Origin: Enteractinococcus coprophilus
GTDB lineage: Bacteria > Actinomycetota > Actinomycetes > Actinomycetales > Micrococcaceae
Reading direction: 5' to 3'
DNA: 64,000 nucleotides
Assembly (NCBI RefSeq): GCF_006716305.1
Contig: NZ_VFOU01000003.1
Coordinates: 558,001 to 622,000 of the forward strand
Within the stretch, counting starts at the first letter, position 1. Each line of letters starts with the position of its first letter. This document shows positions 30,968-56,968 of this stretch, piece after piece. The notes below the pieces were generated by a model. It ran no database searches. It was not told where the DNA came from and saw nothing but the letters and a program-made list of their open reading frames with translations. The translations under genes were made by a program, and so were the position numbers.

Positions 30968-31807
30968 ATGACCACGTGGCTTATCACCGGTTGCTCCACA
31001 GGGCTGGGTCGCGCGCTCGCCCAGCAGGTACTCGAAGCGGGACACAACGCCGTCATCACTGCACGTAATGTTGAGACACTTACGGAGCTTGCCGAGCAAT
31101 ATCCAGACACCACGTTGACGCTACCGCTGGATGTAACCAACGCAGAACAGATCGCTTCTGCCGTTGATGGAGCGACCGAACAGTTCGGCGGGATTGATGT
31201 GCTGGTCAATAATGCAGGCTATGGATATCGTGCTGCAGTTGAAGAGGGCGAACCCGACCAGATTCAGCAGTTATTTGCGACGAACTACTTCGGTGCGGTC
31301 ACGATGATCCAAGAGGTGCTGCCGGGGATGCGGGAGCGCGGCTCCGGGATGATCATCAACATTTCGTCGATCGTAGCGCAGCGTAGTAGCCCGGGCTCAG
31401 GTTTTTATGCGGCAACGAAAGCAGCACTGGAATCAACGTCGGAGGCACTCCAGCAAGAAGTTGGCCCGCTGGGTATTCGCGTATCTATCGTCCAACCCGG
31501 CCCCTTCCGCACCGATTTCGCGGGGCGCTCTCTGCAGCAGTCTGCCGAACCGATTGCAGCATATGCCGAAACGGCAGGGCAGCGTCGCAAAGAAACCGAC
31601 ACGTTGGATGGCAACCAAGCCGGCGATCCAGTCAAGGCGGCTCAGGCCATTATCACGCTTGCTGAACAGGAGAGTCCCCCAATGCGCCTGGTGCTCGGCA
31701 AACAGGCGCTTGAGCTCGCCGAGACAGATCTCAATCAGCAGCTTGATGACCTCATGGATTGGGAGTACCTGGGACTGGACACAGATTACAACCGCGCTGA
31801 TATGTGA
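30968..31807 (+). CDS. Short-chain dehydrogenase/reductase
   Basis: 279 residues, classical SDR. The NAD(P) site TGCSTGLG is at 7-14, NNAG at 81-84, Ser133/134, and the catalytic pair Tyr147 and Lys151 in YAATK. It resembles the oxidoreductase group whose members end in a DxLxxWExLG tail. AAAGGA lies six bases before the ATG at 30968; an earlier ATG at 30947 has no such site. The substrate is unknown. A second copy of its 3' end lies at 32499-32555. Confidence 0.85.
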   Translation: MTTWLITGCSTGLGRALAQQVLEAGHNAVITARNVETLTELAEQYPDTTLTLPLDVTNAEQIASAVDGATEQFGGIDVLVNNAGYGYRAAVEEGEPDQIQQLFATNYFGAVTMIQEVLPGMRERGSGMIINISSIVAQRSSPGSGFYAATKAALESTSEALQQEVGPLGIRVSIVQPGPFRTDFAGRSLQQSAEPIAAYAETAGQRRKETDTLDGNQAGDPVKAAQAIITLAEQESPPMRLVLGKQALELAETDLNQQLDDLMDWEYLGLDTDYNRADM

Positions 31808-31926: not shown

Positions 31927-32196
31927 ATGAAACTCGACGCAGTTTTCACCTTGAAACTAGACGAGGAGTTACGCAACGCCTTCGTCGCTGAGGCTGCTGA
32001 GGCGCATCGCCCGGCTTCCCAGGTTGTTCGTGAGTTGATGCGGGAGTATGTCGAGAAACAACGTCGCGCACGGGAGTATGAAACCCTTCTGGAGAAAAAG
32101 GTCGCATCGGCTCGGTCATCGCTACGCGCTGGAGAGGGTATCAGTAACGAAGAGGTTCGTGTCAATTATGCTGCGCGGCGGCCGGACAGCCAATGA
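31927..32196 (+). CDS. Ribbon-helix-helix antitoxin (ParD/RelB-like)
   Basis: 89 residues. KLDAVFTLKLDEELRNAFVAEA fits an RHH strand-helix, followed by RPASQVVRELMREYVEK as the second helix; a charged C-terminal arm would cover a toxin. ATG 31927 follows CGGAGGTCACTC. Its stop overlaps the ATG of the toxin frame in an ATGA junction, the normal layout for ParD-ParE or RelB-RelE pairs. The toxin is broken, so this antitoxin may now be an orphan regulator. Confidence 0.72.
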   Translation: MKLDAVFTLKLDEELRNAFVAEAAEAHRPASQVVRELMREYVEKQRRAREYETLLEKKVASARSSLRAGEGISNEEVRVNYAARRPDSQ

Positions 32197-32467
32197 GAGT
32201 AGTCTGATCGACACAAGCGTTAAGCGACCGAGACGCCATATGGGACTTTATCACCTCTGACGATATCTGCGCCGCGATGCGAGTTGACACAGACTTCGCC
32301 GATGCTGTGGAAAACCTCGCCGAGTACCCCGAGCTAGGGAAACCTGGTTTGGTTTCGGGTACGCGCGAGCTTTTCCAGTTCACAACTATCGGATCGTCTA
32401 TGAGGTCAATGGTCAGGAAGTATGGATACTAGCGATCGCGCAAACTTCACGACTCTGGCCGGAGTAA
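32193..32467 (+). pseudogene. ParE/RelE-type toxin, inactivated
   Basis: The frame starts MRVV, meets TGA at 32205-32207 where Trp is expected, and continues STQALSDRDAIWDFITSDD and later NLAEYPELGKPG. Near 32372-32378 the reading must shift to give VHNYRIVYEVNGQEVW, then ILAIAQTSRLWPE and TAA at 32465-32467. This is the ParE/RelE fold pattern. One nonsense codon and one single-base deletion destroy it. Loss of the toxin while keeping the antitoxin is the safe order of decay for such modules. Confidence 0.78.
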
Positions 32468-32498: not shown

Positions 32499-32555
32499 CA
32501 ACTCGATGATCTCATGGACTGGGAATTCTTGGGACTCCCCACCGACTACGCCTAA
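32499..32555 (+). pseudogene. 3'-end remnant of a second SDR gene
   Basis: Eighteen codons read QLDDLMDWEFLGLPTDYA then TAA. They parallel the C-terminus of the intact SDR at 30968-31807 (QLDDLMDWEYLGLDTDYN) but differ at synonymous positions. This is a diverged gene end, not a fresh duplication. The toxin-antitoxin pair sits between the two ends. Confidence 0.65.
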
Positions 32556-53335: not shown

Positions 53336-54177
53336 GCTGCATCGTTACCGTGGCGTTCGTGAAAGTTTTCGCACACCGTGGTGCCAGTACCCAATACGCC
53401 GAACATACTCGCGCGGCCTTCGCGCACGCGCTGGCTCTCGGAGCCCACGGTGTGGAGACCGATGTGCAAATCACCTCGGACGGAGTTTTAGTGTGTTGGC
53501 ACGATACCACCGTGAATCGAACCTCGGATGGCCAAGGTGAAGTGCAGGCTCACACGCTGGCGCAGATGCGCGCACTGGATGTGCACTCGTGGAAGGCGCG
53601 CAGTAAGGCGCTGCCGATGGCGTATGGCACGGCGAGAAATCAGCTGTTGACCCTGGATGAGTTGACAGGGCTACTGGTGGATGCCGGGCGGCCCGTCGAG
53701 CTCGCGGTGGAAATGAAGATTACCGCCGCGTCTGCCGGGCTGATCGAAGATGCGGTACTGGACTGGTTGCAGCGCTGGGGTTGGGATGCCACCACCGGCA
53801 CCCTGCGAGCCAACGGCACTGGCGGGCAGGTGAGTGTGTCGATCATGAGCTTTTCACTCAATGCCTTAGACCGGGTGGCTGATGCGGTGCCGGCTGCGCG
53901 TTTGTGCCCCCTGTTTGATTCCTTCGATGCCCACGCCCTGCAGATCGGTTCGCCGGAAACGACGACGGGCCCAGCGCAATTGCTGGGCCCGTCAACGGGG
54001 TGGTTGGCGCATCACGCCTCGCTGTTGCGGTCGTGGACCGAGGTCGGACGAACCGTGCGGATGTGGACGGTAGCCACGAACCGGCAGTTTGAAACCGCCC
54101 GACGCTTGGGCATTCAACAAGTCACAGTCGATGACCCGGACTGGGCGTTAGAACGTGTAACCCCGGTGACCGTTTAG
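53275..54177 (+). CDS. Glycerophosphodiester phosphodiesterase
   Basis: 300 residues. The GDPD motifs are present: HRGAS (His34), VETDVQITSDG (Glu61, Asp63) and VCWHDTTVNRT (His76). It cleaves glycerophosphodiesters to glycerol-3-phosphate and an alcohol. The start may be a later GTG (about residue 29, base 53359), because the first 28 residues precede the usual N-terminus and overlap the divergent gene. Its stop overlaps a relic of a neighbouring gene end at 54174-54218. Confidence 0.88.
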   Translation: MNRALTWLLADVHGLVVQASRCIVTVAFVKVFAHRGASTQYAEHTRAAFAHALALGAHGVETDVQITSDGVLVCWHDTTVNRTSDGQGEVQAHTLAQMRALDVHSWKARSKALPMAYGTARNQLLTLDELTGLLVDAGRPVELAVEMKITAASAGLIEDAVLDWLQRWGWDATTGTLRANGTGGQVSVSIMSFSLNALDRVADAVPAARLCPLFDSFDAHALQIGSPETTTGPAQLLGPSTGWLAHHASLLRSWTEVGRTVRMWTVATNRQFETARRLGIQQVTVDDPDWALERVTPVTV

Positions 54178-54218
54178 GCCCACGGAATATCGCCGAACTC
54201 CAGCACGATCCGGCCGCG
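54174..54218 (-). pseudogene. Displaced 3' end of quinone-reductase gene (left boundary repeat)
   Basis: On the minus strand this encodes GRIVLEFGDIPWA and a stop. It aligns base-for-base with the end of the gene at 55469 (39 of 43 identical in the compared part, 27 of them in one run). It bounds the RelA/SpoT cassette on the left, as a displaced gene end would after insertion of an element at the 3' end of a gene. Confidence 0.75.
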
Positions 54219-54258
54219 ACGATATCTGGCTCCTCTTGGGTTTACAACGAGCGTAAGT

Positions 54259-54296
54259 ACAAAGCCTCTGTCGATAACCAATGACAGAGGCTTTGT
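54259..54296. terminator. Bidirectional terminator
   Basis: A perfect 14-bp stem, ACAAAGCCTCTGTC and complement, around ten bases, with T-runs available on the minus side. It separates the cassette genes from the GDPD gene. Confidence 0.8.
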
Positions 54297-54308
54297 GATG
54301 AGAGTTGA

Positions 54309-54572
54309 TCAAGCGAAATTCAGGGAACGGAACAACTCGGCTACTTTTTTTTCTGCTTCACCAGTGAAGTAATTCGCATGTGTTACTTTGACTGTTTCGA
54401 TGGAATCGGACCCGACCAAAACAATATCCATTAGCGCTGAATCACGAAATTCAGCTTCAAGTTCCCCATACCTGCGAGTAGCAGAAGCGACATCGTCTTC
54501 AAACGGAAGTATGTCTTCCAGCTCTTTTTTGGCATGGTTGTAAATCAAAATAAAATTTTTCATGACAGCCAT
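54309..54572 (-). CDS. Small partner protein of RelA/SpoT enzyme
   Basis: 87 residues: KNFILIYNHAKKELEDILPF, an acidic middle, and DIVLVGSDSIETVKVTHANYF, with a helical end. No family is recognised. It starts three bases after the stop of the RelA/SpoT gene, so the pair is an operon. The position is that of an antitoxin in toxic small alarmone synthetase modules, but such a role is unproven. ATG 54572 follows an AGGAAA-type site. Confidence 0.55.
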   Translation of the reverse strand: MAVMKNFILIYNHAKKELEDILPFEDDVASATRRYGELEAEFRDSALMDIVLVGSDSIETVKVTHANYFTGEAEKKVAELFRSLNFA

Positions 54573-54575
54573 GTT

Positions 54576-55373
54576 TTATTTCCTCTCAGGTTCGCCCGTC
54601 ATTGAGCCCAGTAACTCTTGGACGCGCATTCCCAGTATACGCAGTTCTTTCATCTCGTCCAGTGTTAATTCAGGTCCAAGCCCTTCCTGCCAGGCTGAGA
54701 ACGTCGACTGCAATTTCATGAACTCCTGCACGATGTGAGATCCAGATTGTTTGAAATCCTCAGACATAATTCTGCTAAAAGACTCCACTAAATCCGCCCA
54801 ATCATGCATTAACCGAGTCCGAAGTTGAATTTCAATTTTCAAATCAGACGAAGGTTCTTTCACGATAAGGTGGACAGAGCGGTAGCCACTATCGCGCGGA
54901 GTAGCTACATAATCACGTTCACGATGAACGCGATTAGCGTATTCCCGACGAACCAACTCATGCAATACGTTCAGCTCATCGTAAGTTTCCACTACGACAC
55001 GGCACCCACCGATATCTTCCATCCTCGACAAGTCTGTGTTGTCCGGCCTCCGGAGCTTATTGATAATCGTTGGTAAACGCTTGAGACGGCTCGTAATTTG
55101 CGTGTCGAAATCCGTTCCGACACAGATGTCACGAAGCGTTTGTTCAACTCGACCCATCGGCTTACTGAAATGAGAACGATATAGGTCAATCACGGAGATA
55201 GCGCGCTGAAGAATGTCCTTATCAGTTTCCAACTCTGCCGGATCTTTTTCTGACGTTATCTCTATAGTTGCTGCTTCTGATTTCCGCATCACCTGTCGAA
55301 TTGCAGACCCTGCTTTTCGGACAGCAGATTTTGAAGGCAGTTTATCCAAATCTGCACTCTGTTGGTCTGTCAT
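54576..55373 (-). CDS. RelA/SpoT-domain nucleotide pyrophosphokinase (possible toxSAS)
   Basis: 265 residues with a synthetase domain only and no hydrolase, TGS or ACT domain. Motifs: RLKRLPTIINKLRR (96-109), MEDIGGCRVVV with Asp120, the G-loop DSGYRSVHLIV with Tyr164, and EIQLRTRLMHDWAD with Glu181. These build a (p)ppGpp-type active site. Single-domain enzymes either make alarmones or, in toxin forms, pyrophosphorylate tRNA or make (pp)pApp. The low-GC cassette and the 87-residue partner favour a toxin-antitoxin pair, but a housekeeping small synthetase is possible. Confidence 0.78.
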   Translation of the reverse strand: MTDQQSADLDKLPSKSAVRKAGSAIRQVMRKSEAATIEITSEKDPAELETDKDILQRAISVIDLYRSHFSKPMGRVEQTLRDICVGTDFDTQITSRLKRLPTIINKLRRPDNTDLSRMEDIGGCRVVVETYDELNVLHELVRREYANRVHRERDYVATPRDSGYRSVHLIVKEPSSDLKIEIQLRTRLMHDWADLVESFSRIMSEDFKQSGSHIVQEFMKLQSTFSAWQEGLGPELTLDEMKELRILGMRVQELLGSMTGEPERK

Positions 55374-55468
55374 ACATGCCCACGTACCAGAGCATTTACA
55401 CTTGAGCCTATTCTCACTCTACGCCCGACGATACCTGGCGCAGCTCATGTGAGATCTGTCCATAAGGA

Positions 55469-56416
55469 TTAGGTCCACGGAATATCGCCGAACTCCAGCA
55501 CAATGCGACCGCGGATGCCACCAGCTTCTAGCTTGCGGTGCGCTTCGGGTGCGTCTTCCATCTGCAGGACCTCGGCAACGCGGAGCGTGAGTACGCCGTC
55601 TTCCACCTGTTGGCGCAGCGCATCGAGTTTGGCTTGTTCTTTGGCGTAATCGACCACCCAAATCGGTTGGAAGATCACGCCGCGATCGCGTTCGCCTTTG
55701 GCCCCGCGAATAGTAATCACAGTGCCACCATCTTTGACGGCGGGCAGAATCTCATCTTCCATGACTGCAGCATCGATCACGGCGTCAACACCTTTTGGAA
55801 ATTCGGTGCGCACAGCATCCGGAAACGTCTCGCCACGCAGTTTGACGATATCGGCACCCAAAGACAGGACCAGTTCGTCGTCGGCTTCAGAAGTATCCGC
55901 CATGACCACCAGGCCATCGGCCTTGGCCAACTGAACAACATAGCCACCCAGCACTCCGGCGGCACCGGTGACCACCAGGGTCGAACCTTCCGGCAGATTC
56001 AGCGTATCCAGTGCCAGACGAGCGGTCAGCCCGTTCATCGGCAAGGTGCAGGCTTCAGCAAATGTGGCACCCTCTGGCATCCGCGCCACAGATTCAACCG
56101 GCACCACAACGCGCTCGGCATAGGCGCCGTATGCGCCGTCGGGCACCACAATGGCCATGACTTTGTCGCCCACGGTCAGATCGGTGTCGGCGTTGGAGTC
56201 GATAGCTTCGATCATGCCGGCCACATCCATCCCCGGCACAAAGGGCCCCTCTTTGCCCTCGGTCCGGGATCCGGCGCGGCGCACGGTGTCGGTGGGACTG
56301 ACCGCGGCGGTTTGGACGCGAATGAGTACTTCGCCCTCACCAACTTCTGGGTCTGGGAGCTCCACAACGTGTAAAACTTCTGGGCCGCCTGGGGTATCAA
56401 ATGCAACTGCTTTCAT
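55469..56416 (-). CDS. Quinone oxidoreductase-like MDR enzyme
   Basis: 315 residues from ATG 56416, the usual start (MKAVAFDTPGG). NADP site VVTGAAGVLGGYVVQLAK lies in mid-protein, and the zinc-ligand cysteines of alcohol dehydrogenases are absent, as in the quinone-reductase branch. It reduces quinones or enones with NADPH. Its last codons are repeated at 54174-54218, which marks the insertion of the cassette next to its 3' end. Confidence 0.82.
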   Translation of the reverse strand: MKAVAFDTPGGPEVLHVVELPDPEVGEGEVLIRVQTAAVSPTDTVRRAGSRTEGKEGPFVPGMDVAGMIEAIDSNADTDLTVGDKVMAIVVPDGAYGAYAERVVVPVESVARMPEGATFAEACTLPMNGLTARLALDTLNLPEGSTLVVTGAAGVLGGYVVQLAKADGLVVMADTSEADDELVLSLGADIVKLRGETFPDAVRTEFPKGVDAVIDAAVMEDEILPAVKDGGTVITIRGAKGERDRGVIFQPIWVVDYAKEQAKLDALRQQVEDGVLTLRVAEVLQMEDAPEAHRKLEAGGIRGRIVLEFGDIPWT

Positions 56417-56719: not shown

Positions 56720-56968
56720 ATGAAGTGGAGCGCCGCTGAAATTGAAAAGGCCCTGCTTGCGCTCAATGACGACGAACGGAAAGCAGTCCTCTACAGCGTG
56801 CTGCGCAACATCGACAAGACAGATACCAGTGATAAAGGCACTGATCAGGCGTGGCATAAAGAACTGCTGCGGAAGCTTCAGGACAATCATCAAGGAGCTT
56901 TGATCGATGCGCTTGAAGAGCACGCACAGCTTCGTTCAGATATGTCGTCGCTGCGCCAGTGGCGCTAA
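56720..56968 (+). CDS. Small helical protein, unknown
   Basis: 82 residues, mostly charged helix: MKWSAAEIEKALLALNDDER then LYSVLRNIDKTDTSDKG. The start resembles short addiction-module proteins that begin with such an ExEKALLAL helix, but the rest does not match clearly. A GGGG run precedes the ATG closely. No toxin gene is evident next to it. Confidence 0.45.
   Translation: MKWSAAEIEKALLALNDDERKAVLYSVLRNIDKTDTSDKGTDQAWHKELLRKLQDNHQGALIDALEEHAQLRSDMSSLRQWR

Follow-up and report, generated by a model that had tools for sequence, protein, structure and literature searches.

The window analysed here is the whole 64,000-nt stretch G000:C3:558001-622000 of the Enteractinococcus coprophilus genome (2.88 Mb in 6 contigs), and it carries a CapRel-type toxin–antitoxin cassette between a quinone-reductase-like gene (QOR) and the gene for a glycerophosphodiester phosphodiesterase (GDPD). 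Comparison with other genomes of the same genus (congeners; the genus is called Yaniella in our analysis) showed that, relative to one of them, G006, the cassette has been inserted here or was precisely lost there, and that it is bounded by two copies of the QOR 3' end. We regard it, with a probability of roughly 55%, as a mobile, recombinase-free toxin–antitoxin cassette that was inserted at the 3' end of QOR with a long target duplication. Its likeness to inserted restriction–modification systems suggests that it entered as these do, rather than through a site-specific recombinase. The anatomy is the toxin–antitoxin version of a known but poorly understood mode of gene insertion, and it occurs twice in this one window.

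A preliminary description of this DNA had reported a duplication of the last 15 QOR codons, and we located both 45-bp copies exactly where it placed them (Table 1): they are identical at 41 of 45 positions (91%), with one run of 27 identical bases. Its remark that the differences are wobble-like holds for three of the four, which are synonymous third-position changes; the fourth is a first-position change (Ala/Thr). A degenerate 30-base pattern of the gene end, derived from the sequence itself, matched twice in the window versus not at all in 100 shuffles, and a local alignment of both flanks scored 37, whereas none of 200 rough dinucleotide shuffles exceeded 17. The 23-base identical core of the repeat, with up to three mismatches allowed, was found at just these two sites of its own genome. 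As described earlier, the insert of 1,250 bp between the copies is low in GC (~46%) and holds two co-oriented genes, a RelA/SpoT-domain toxin and its 87-aa partner; the remaining open reading frames (ORFs) overlap these two, and the insert amounts to this operon plus 90 and 95 bp. The reported overlap of stop codons was likewise seen, the TTA of the detached copy lying over the TAG of GDPD, as was a second short repeat at the inner ends, a 14-mer with two matches in the window versus 0.04 expected per 64 kb. The 14-mers are placed asymmetrically, abutting the detached copy but standing 29 bp away from the gene-attached one, and could be a short target repeat formed when a CapRel unit entered an earlier small insertion.

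A QOR search of nine genomes of the genus gave some match in eight and a close match in six, the own genome included; GDPD adjoins QOR in G006 and G004. In G006, the QOR stop directly overlaps the GDPD stop and the gene end is present in a single copy. This is the empty site that had been predicted for relatives, and it supports the earlier proposal of an insertion at the 3' end of a gene. Both window copies align to one and the same G006 stretch (a 46-bp overlap), and it is this alignment together with the empty site that identifies the cassette as inserted, or as precisely lost in G006. Among the congeners, the exact gene-end pattern was matched once, in G006; the seven others gave no match, and in some of them QOR ends differently. 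The search for further cargo between these repeats, proposed as a check, was negative with the pattern in congeners and viral contigs and with the core in the own genome; pattern and core together matched no viral contig and, in the own genome, only the two known sites.

The two bracketed insertions stand out in a wider alignment. When 152 kb of this contig were aligned to 139 kb of G006:C15 by chained blastn, 36 blocks and 35 junctions resulted, and the G006-side overlaps at these junctions measured 46 bp (the QOR case) and 51 bp (the second case), otherwise only 2 and 3 bp. Seven insertions were picked by hand for an end-repeat test, leaving out one of 474 bp (67 bp in G006). At E<1e-3, end repeats were detected in two of the seven, both toxin–antitoxin insertions (E 2e-13 and 1e-8), and in none of the other five, namely a second CapRel copy and four insertions that by eye carry a dehydrogenase, a surface protein, an oxidoreductase and a transporter block.

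The second toxin–antitoxin cassette of the window lies at a short-chain dehydrogenase/reductase (SDR) gene and has the same architecture as the QOR case, with its own empty site in G006: the sequence joined to the detached SDR end is what directly follows SDR in that genome. The two copies of the SDR end are 76% identical. The antitoxin-like gene shows 69–71% DNA identity over ~140 bp to genes annotated as "antitoxin of toxin-antitoxin stability system" on two plasmids. The detached copy has a short ...TDYA end as in G006, and the gene-attached one has the longer type of end found in the SDR genes of four other congeners; this longer end could also be explained by read-through into the insert.

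Table 1. Features of the two bracketed cassettes in the window.
Feature	Position	Strand	Evidence or remark
SDR gene, target of the second case	30968..31807	+	PF00106
Gene-attached copy, 51 bp of SDR 3' end	31739..31789	+	
Antitoxin-like gene	31927..32196	+	no Pfam match at 1e-3; plasmid DNA likeness
ParE-type toxin remnant, decayed; two pieces, one with internal stop	32202..32458	+	two PF05016 matches
Detached copy, 51 bp of SDR 3' end, followed by native downstream sequence	32499..32549	+	aligned to G006 native end
GDPD, native neighbour	53356..54177	+	PF03009; 88% identical in G006
Detached (distal) copy of 45-bp QOR 3' end, joined to GDPD	54174..54218	-	43/45 identical to G006 native end
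Inner 14-mer repeat, left	54217..54230	+	
14-bp perfect inverted repeat 3' of antitoxin gene	54259..54296	.	hairpin, probably operon terminator
Antitoxin, ATcapRel kind, 87 aa	54309..54572	-	PDC-S33 and phrog_4773 C-terminal parts; HXXY instead of YXXY
Toxin, unfused CapRel-type toxSAS, 265 aa	54576..55373	-	PF04607, PDC-S33 and 7ztb matches
Inner 14-mer repeat, right	55426..55439	+	
Gene-attached (proximal) copy of 45-bp QOR 3' end	55469..55513	-	direct repeat
QOR (zinc-binding dehydrogenase), target	55469..56416	-	PF13602, PF08240, PF00107; G006 orthologue 91% identical

The gene-attached (P) and detached (D) copies were compared with the native end (N) of G006 as outgroup. For the 45-bp QOR ends we counted 4 (P–D), 6 (P–N) and 2 (D–N) differences, and all four P–D changes fall on P; the 51-bp SDR ends differ at 12, 10 and 11 positions, respectively, forming a star. 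Synonymous changes are the majority in every comparison (3/4, 5/6 and 2/2 for QOR; 9/12, 6/10 and 6/11 for SDR). Since D joins the native neighbour GDPD, we infer that it is the relic of the native QOR end. The earlier suggestion that an incoming end replaced the end of the gene is mildly favoured by the position of the four changes, small as these numbers are, and the end may instead have been duplicated; P may have started as an identical copy or may have arrived from another strain.

The claim that the cassette contains no integrase was confirmed, as just the two genes lie inside it. Two Phage_integrase-domain genes were found in the genome, with frames of 347 and 323 aa, both on contig C2; none was found on this contig, where serine recombinase and transposase families were not searched as such. 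The two genes on C2 are presumably XerC and XerD. A phage carrying this cassette was sought and rejected, none of the 35 phage records that match the toxin doing so over 80% of its length. The same applies to a plasmid: among 139 plasmid records matching the toxin, four do so over 80%, none of them at >60% identity, and the cassette DNA itself has no plasmid match. The ends of both cassettes had no DNA match in the 2.09 Mb compared (own-genome same-place loci excluded), and hence no shared terminal motif was found.

The 265-aa toxin matches PF04607 (RelA/SpoT; 4.5e-23) and PADLOC PDC-S33 (1.4e-52), and its top PDB sequence matches are 7ztb (5.1e-18) and 9erv, the latter titled as Salmonella CapRel. 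We take 7ztb to be the CapRel-SJ46 structure. Toxin and partner match successive parts of the 349-position PDC-S33 profile and of phrog_4773, the 87-aa partner corresponding to the C-terminal part of each (1.5e-8 and 2.7e-4). In Mycobacterium terramassiliense AB308 (L177), the antitoxin that lies beside CapRel shares 46% identity with the partner over 69 aa. No convincing PDB sequence match was obtained for the partner. With regard to the pseudo-zinc-finger fold of CapRel antitoxins, its predicted model, of reasonable confidence (mean pLDDT 85.9), had no Foldseek match at 1e-3; CapRel 9erv ranked 16th with an E of 2.7. On the strength of the profile and PDB matches and the likeness to the M. 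terramassiliense antitoxin, the pair is, by sequence, a further member of a known family, an unfused CapRel toxSAS with its antitoxin. According to PMC9712102, fusion is usual for CapRel outside Actinobacteria, whereas actinobacterial pairs are mostly unfused; the unfused CapRel of M. terramassiliense is among the sequences aligned there. The window pair shares with CapRel toxSAS the toxin domain (toxSYNTH), which is most similar to CapRel, the arrangement as two adjacent genes and an antitoxin that corresponds by homology to the C-terminal domain of the fused form. By this homology (PMC9712102 and PMC11782079, as far as the mechanism is described there), the antitoxin would plug the ATP site of the toxin, and a phage trigger would release the toxin from it. 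The freed toxin would then pyrophosphorylate tRNA 3' ends, stopping translation and protecting the population. Two viral contigs of ~40 kb (L253 and L254) carry a CapRel toxin and a separate antitoxin 55–58% identical to that of the window; their antitoxins are about as near to it as the nearest chromosomal ones.

The antitoxin differs from fused CapRel in its motif, HXXY here and YXXY there; neutralisation via YXXY is described for CapRel-SJ46 in PMC11782079. We scored this position by script, H or Y alone, in loci L163–L242. Y was present in 44/44 fused and H in 27/27 split loci (71 of the 80 classified, nine unclassified), and the partner was matched in 43 loci, of which the 29 split ones had H and the 14 fused ones Y. 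YXXY, described for fused CapRel, may thus not define the split members. Part of this correlation follows phylogeny, most split loci being actinobacterial. The term HXXY is absent from the main texts of PMC9712102 and PMC11782079, and an open-access literature search returned only the former of these.

CapRel-type pairs are present in four of the nine genomes of the genus, at differing sites and several of them frameshifted. The own genome has two, one at QOR/GDPD and one near pta (named by eye). The latter is frameshifted (L068:9403-10316, corresponding to ~639.4–640.3 kb of G000:C3); the insertion that holds it, flanked by a thiamine-binding-like gene (by eye) and pta, measures 1,160 bp where G006 has 61 bp. 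In two species, pairs lie directly behind tRNA-Gln/tRNA-Glu (L069:9301-10315 and L072:7361-8491). The toxins at this recurrent site are only 33% identical to each other, and the Y. halotolerans one is 54–71% identical to the pta copy; the cassettes found there are thus non-orthologous. The pair of G003 lies beside an McrC-like gene (by eye). Around these other copies in the genus, no repeat was better than E 0.1; an 18-mer around the pta copy has E 0.13. In the class as a whole, the partner was matched at E 1e-5 in three of 394 sampled genomes, the own one included.

Among CapRel loci in general, flanking repeats at E 1e-3 were found in 13 of 79 testable ones. A close-bracket rule (≥35 bits) was satisfied by 6/80 loci, versus 19/1062 overlapping control placements in the same loci; the count becomes 4/78 once L225 and L229, which have the same repeat and look like one element, are merged and L217, attC-like by eye, is dropped, with the control rate left as before merging. 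These four, closely bracketed like the window's cassette, have repeats of 41–65 bp with 81–86% identity: L191 of Klenkia terrae; L194 of Arachnia propionica, where the repeat is the 3' part of tRNA-Leu; L225 of Colwellia, with the repeat at a terminator-like hairpin behind histidine ammonia-lyase; and L232 of Gaiellasilicea (a Gaiella relative), where it begins at the stop codon of an ORF. By a shuffle-based score, eight of 79 loci, the window's included, reached z≥7; of these, L217 is integron-like, and the arrangement in L190 and L236 is wider. Since the enrichment is modest, bracketing as a general feature of CapRel loci is possible but unproven. A 25-bp, 96% repeat in Micrococcus lylae (L164/L070) was not counted: its copies lie 1.7 kb apart and enclose an extra ORF besides CapRel, which does not satisfy the close-bracket rule. 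In Psychrosphaera (L217:3641-6601), CapRel stands between attC-like repeats in what looks, by eye, like an integron cassette array.

A wider test covered the ParE and PIN loci of the genus, 22 rows representing 21 distinct loci (L152 is uninformative at a contig edge and L150 slightly short). Bracketing repeats were found in the SDR case, L162 and L154, and in 0/24 dehydrogenase controls. L162, a VapBC-like pair of G003, has a 107-bp, 77% repeat (1073-1179 and 1991-2096) of a stretch that by eye codes for a helix-turn-helix (HTH)-like protein, and may be a third case, here of another toxin family; the repeat appears to lie in the start of an HTH gene, not at a clean 3' end. L154 was not counted as a case, its repeat belonging to an intergenic repeat family.

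The closest parallel is provided by restriction–modification systems, for which insertions that duplicate a long target are described (Nobusato 2000; Furuta 2010, as cited in PMC3874152 and PMC3031569). As presented in these sources, they have in common with our cassettes an addictive cargo, the lack of mobile-element genes, long direct target repeats and an empty site in a relative, seen here for both cases as a single repeat copy in G006. They differ in cargo, which is toxin–antitoxin in both of our cases, and in that our repeats are shorter and the copies have diverged. By this analogy, the cassette would have inserted at the QOR 3' end and left the last 45 bp of the gene present in two copies; the gene-attached copy keeps QOR complete, and the detached copy stays with GDPD. 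In favour of this reading are the predicted empty site, the second cassette of like architecture, the two long junction overlaps, the end repeats of two toxin–antitoxin insertions among the seven compared, the scatter of CapRel pairs over differing sites in the genus and the four bracketed loci elsewhere. Several observations weigh against such a duplication. The copies differ by 9% (QOR) and 24% (SDR), so their identity at insertion cannot be demonstrated, and the location of all four separating QOR changes on the functional copy is odd for a simple duplication. At 45 and 51 bp, the repeats fall short of the order of 100 bp given for restriction–modification systems. Most CapRel loci lack such bracketing, 71 of the 79 scoring z<6 (this genome's second CapRel copy included), and the bracketing rate is only modestly above control placements. 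Nor are flanking repeats rare as such: sampling showed them at 20/296 positions in this contig (152 kb) and at 40/270 in G006 (139 kb).

Site-specific integration, with the repeats as attL and attR and a tyrosine recombinase acting in trans or since lost, seems to us an unlikely origin. It would make the cassette similar to a cis-mobilizable element (CIME), an element bounded by the repeated end of its target gene and devoid of integration genes (PMC5704250). These features, as given there, are common to both, and the repeat length and position at gene or tRNA 3' ends, as with the tRNA-Leu of Arachnia propionica, resemble att sites; imperfect copies would suit an element that brings its own gene end, and the inner 14-mers could be recombinase arm sites. 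However, our insert has two genes, shows no trace of a decayed integrative and conjugative (ICE) or integrative and mobilizable (IME) element, and no island integrase was seen, the Phage_integrase-domain genes being confined to C2. No recombinase family was detected among the 16 ORFs neighbouring the four bracketed loci either (seven match nothing, and some are perhaps not genes), and the margins of 90 and 95 bp leave little space for remnants.

One-sided homologous recombination, which we consider improbable, would have brought in DNA of another Yaniella with the cassette already behind its QOR, through a crossover within the gene end and illegitimate joining on the other side, leaving one native and one foreign end. 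Such homology-facilitated illegitimate recombination is known in competent bacteria and is described as inefficient in E. coli conjugation (PMC3240628). The ends fit this course to some extent: the detached QOR copy agrees with the G006 native end at 43/45 positions and the gene-attached one at 39/45, and in the SDR case the detached copy is of the short G006 type with a gene-attached end of the longer congener kind. Yet no cassette lies behind QOR at six clear QOR loci of five congeners (1.5-kb flanks), the possible read-through would account for the longer SDR end, and QOR diverges by 15% on average between species, so that 39/45 is unremarkable. That the gene end was duplicated in tandem independently of the cassette, or that the assembly is at fault, has nothing in its favour besides the repeat itself and is very hard to credit. 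Simple tandem duplication was rejected on account of the single copy at the G006 empty site, and the window has two such cases, at different genes and both around toxin–antitoxin genes; as the copies differ, an assembly echo does not explain them.

Insertion with long target duplication is the reading that we carry forward, and the earlier interpretation is partly supported and mostly right, with genes that belong to a known family. The finding bears on how bare toxin–antitoxin and phage-defence genes can pass from one chromosome to another where neither transposon, phage nor integrase is at hand. The window offers two cases within 64 kb, each with an empty site in the same congener, and there are candidates of similar anatomy in other genera. 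It is conceivable, though we would put it forward only tentatively and at less than even odds, that small toxin–antitoxin cassettes of unrelated families form a general recombinase-free mobile class in Actinomycetota and Gammaproteobacteria, settling at gene or tRNA 3' ends with target duplications of 40–110 bp. If so, toxin–antitoxin mobility would be linked to the long-target-duplication insertions of restriction–modification systems, with concrete loci for studying the mechanism; the long repeats would permit precise loss, and the cassettes would appear as clean presence/absence polymorphisms. An open-access literature search found no toxin–antitoxin pairs with long target duplications, which is weak evidence.

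Two minor observations concern the surroundings of QOR. An orphan antitoxin-like ORF, with Pfam matches only below the cut-off, lies on the other side of the gene at 56720-56968, and its relative in G003 (L007:2533-2787) is followed by a ParE toxin (L154). An intergenic repeat of ~135 bp, which includes a terminator-like hairpin, was seen by eye to recur close to QOR in G003, G005 and G008 (L007, L005 and L006), and it stands three times within 2.4 kb in L154.

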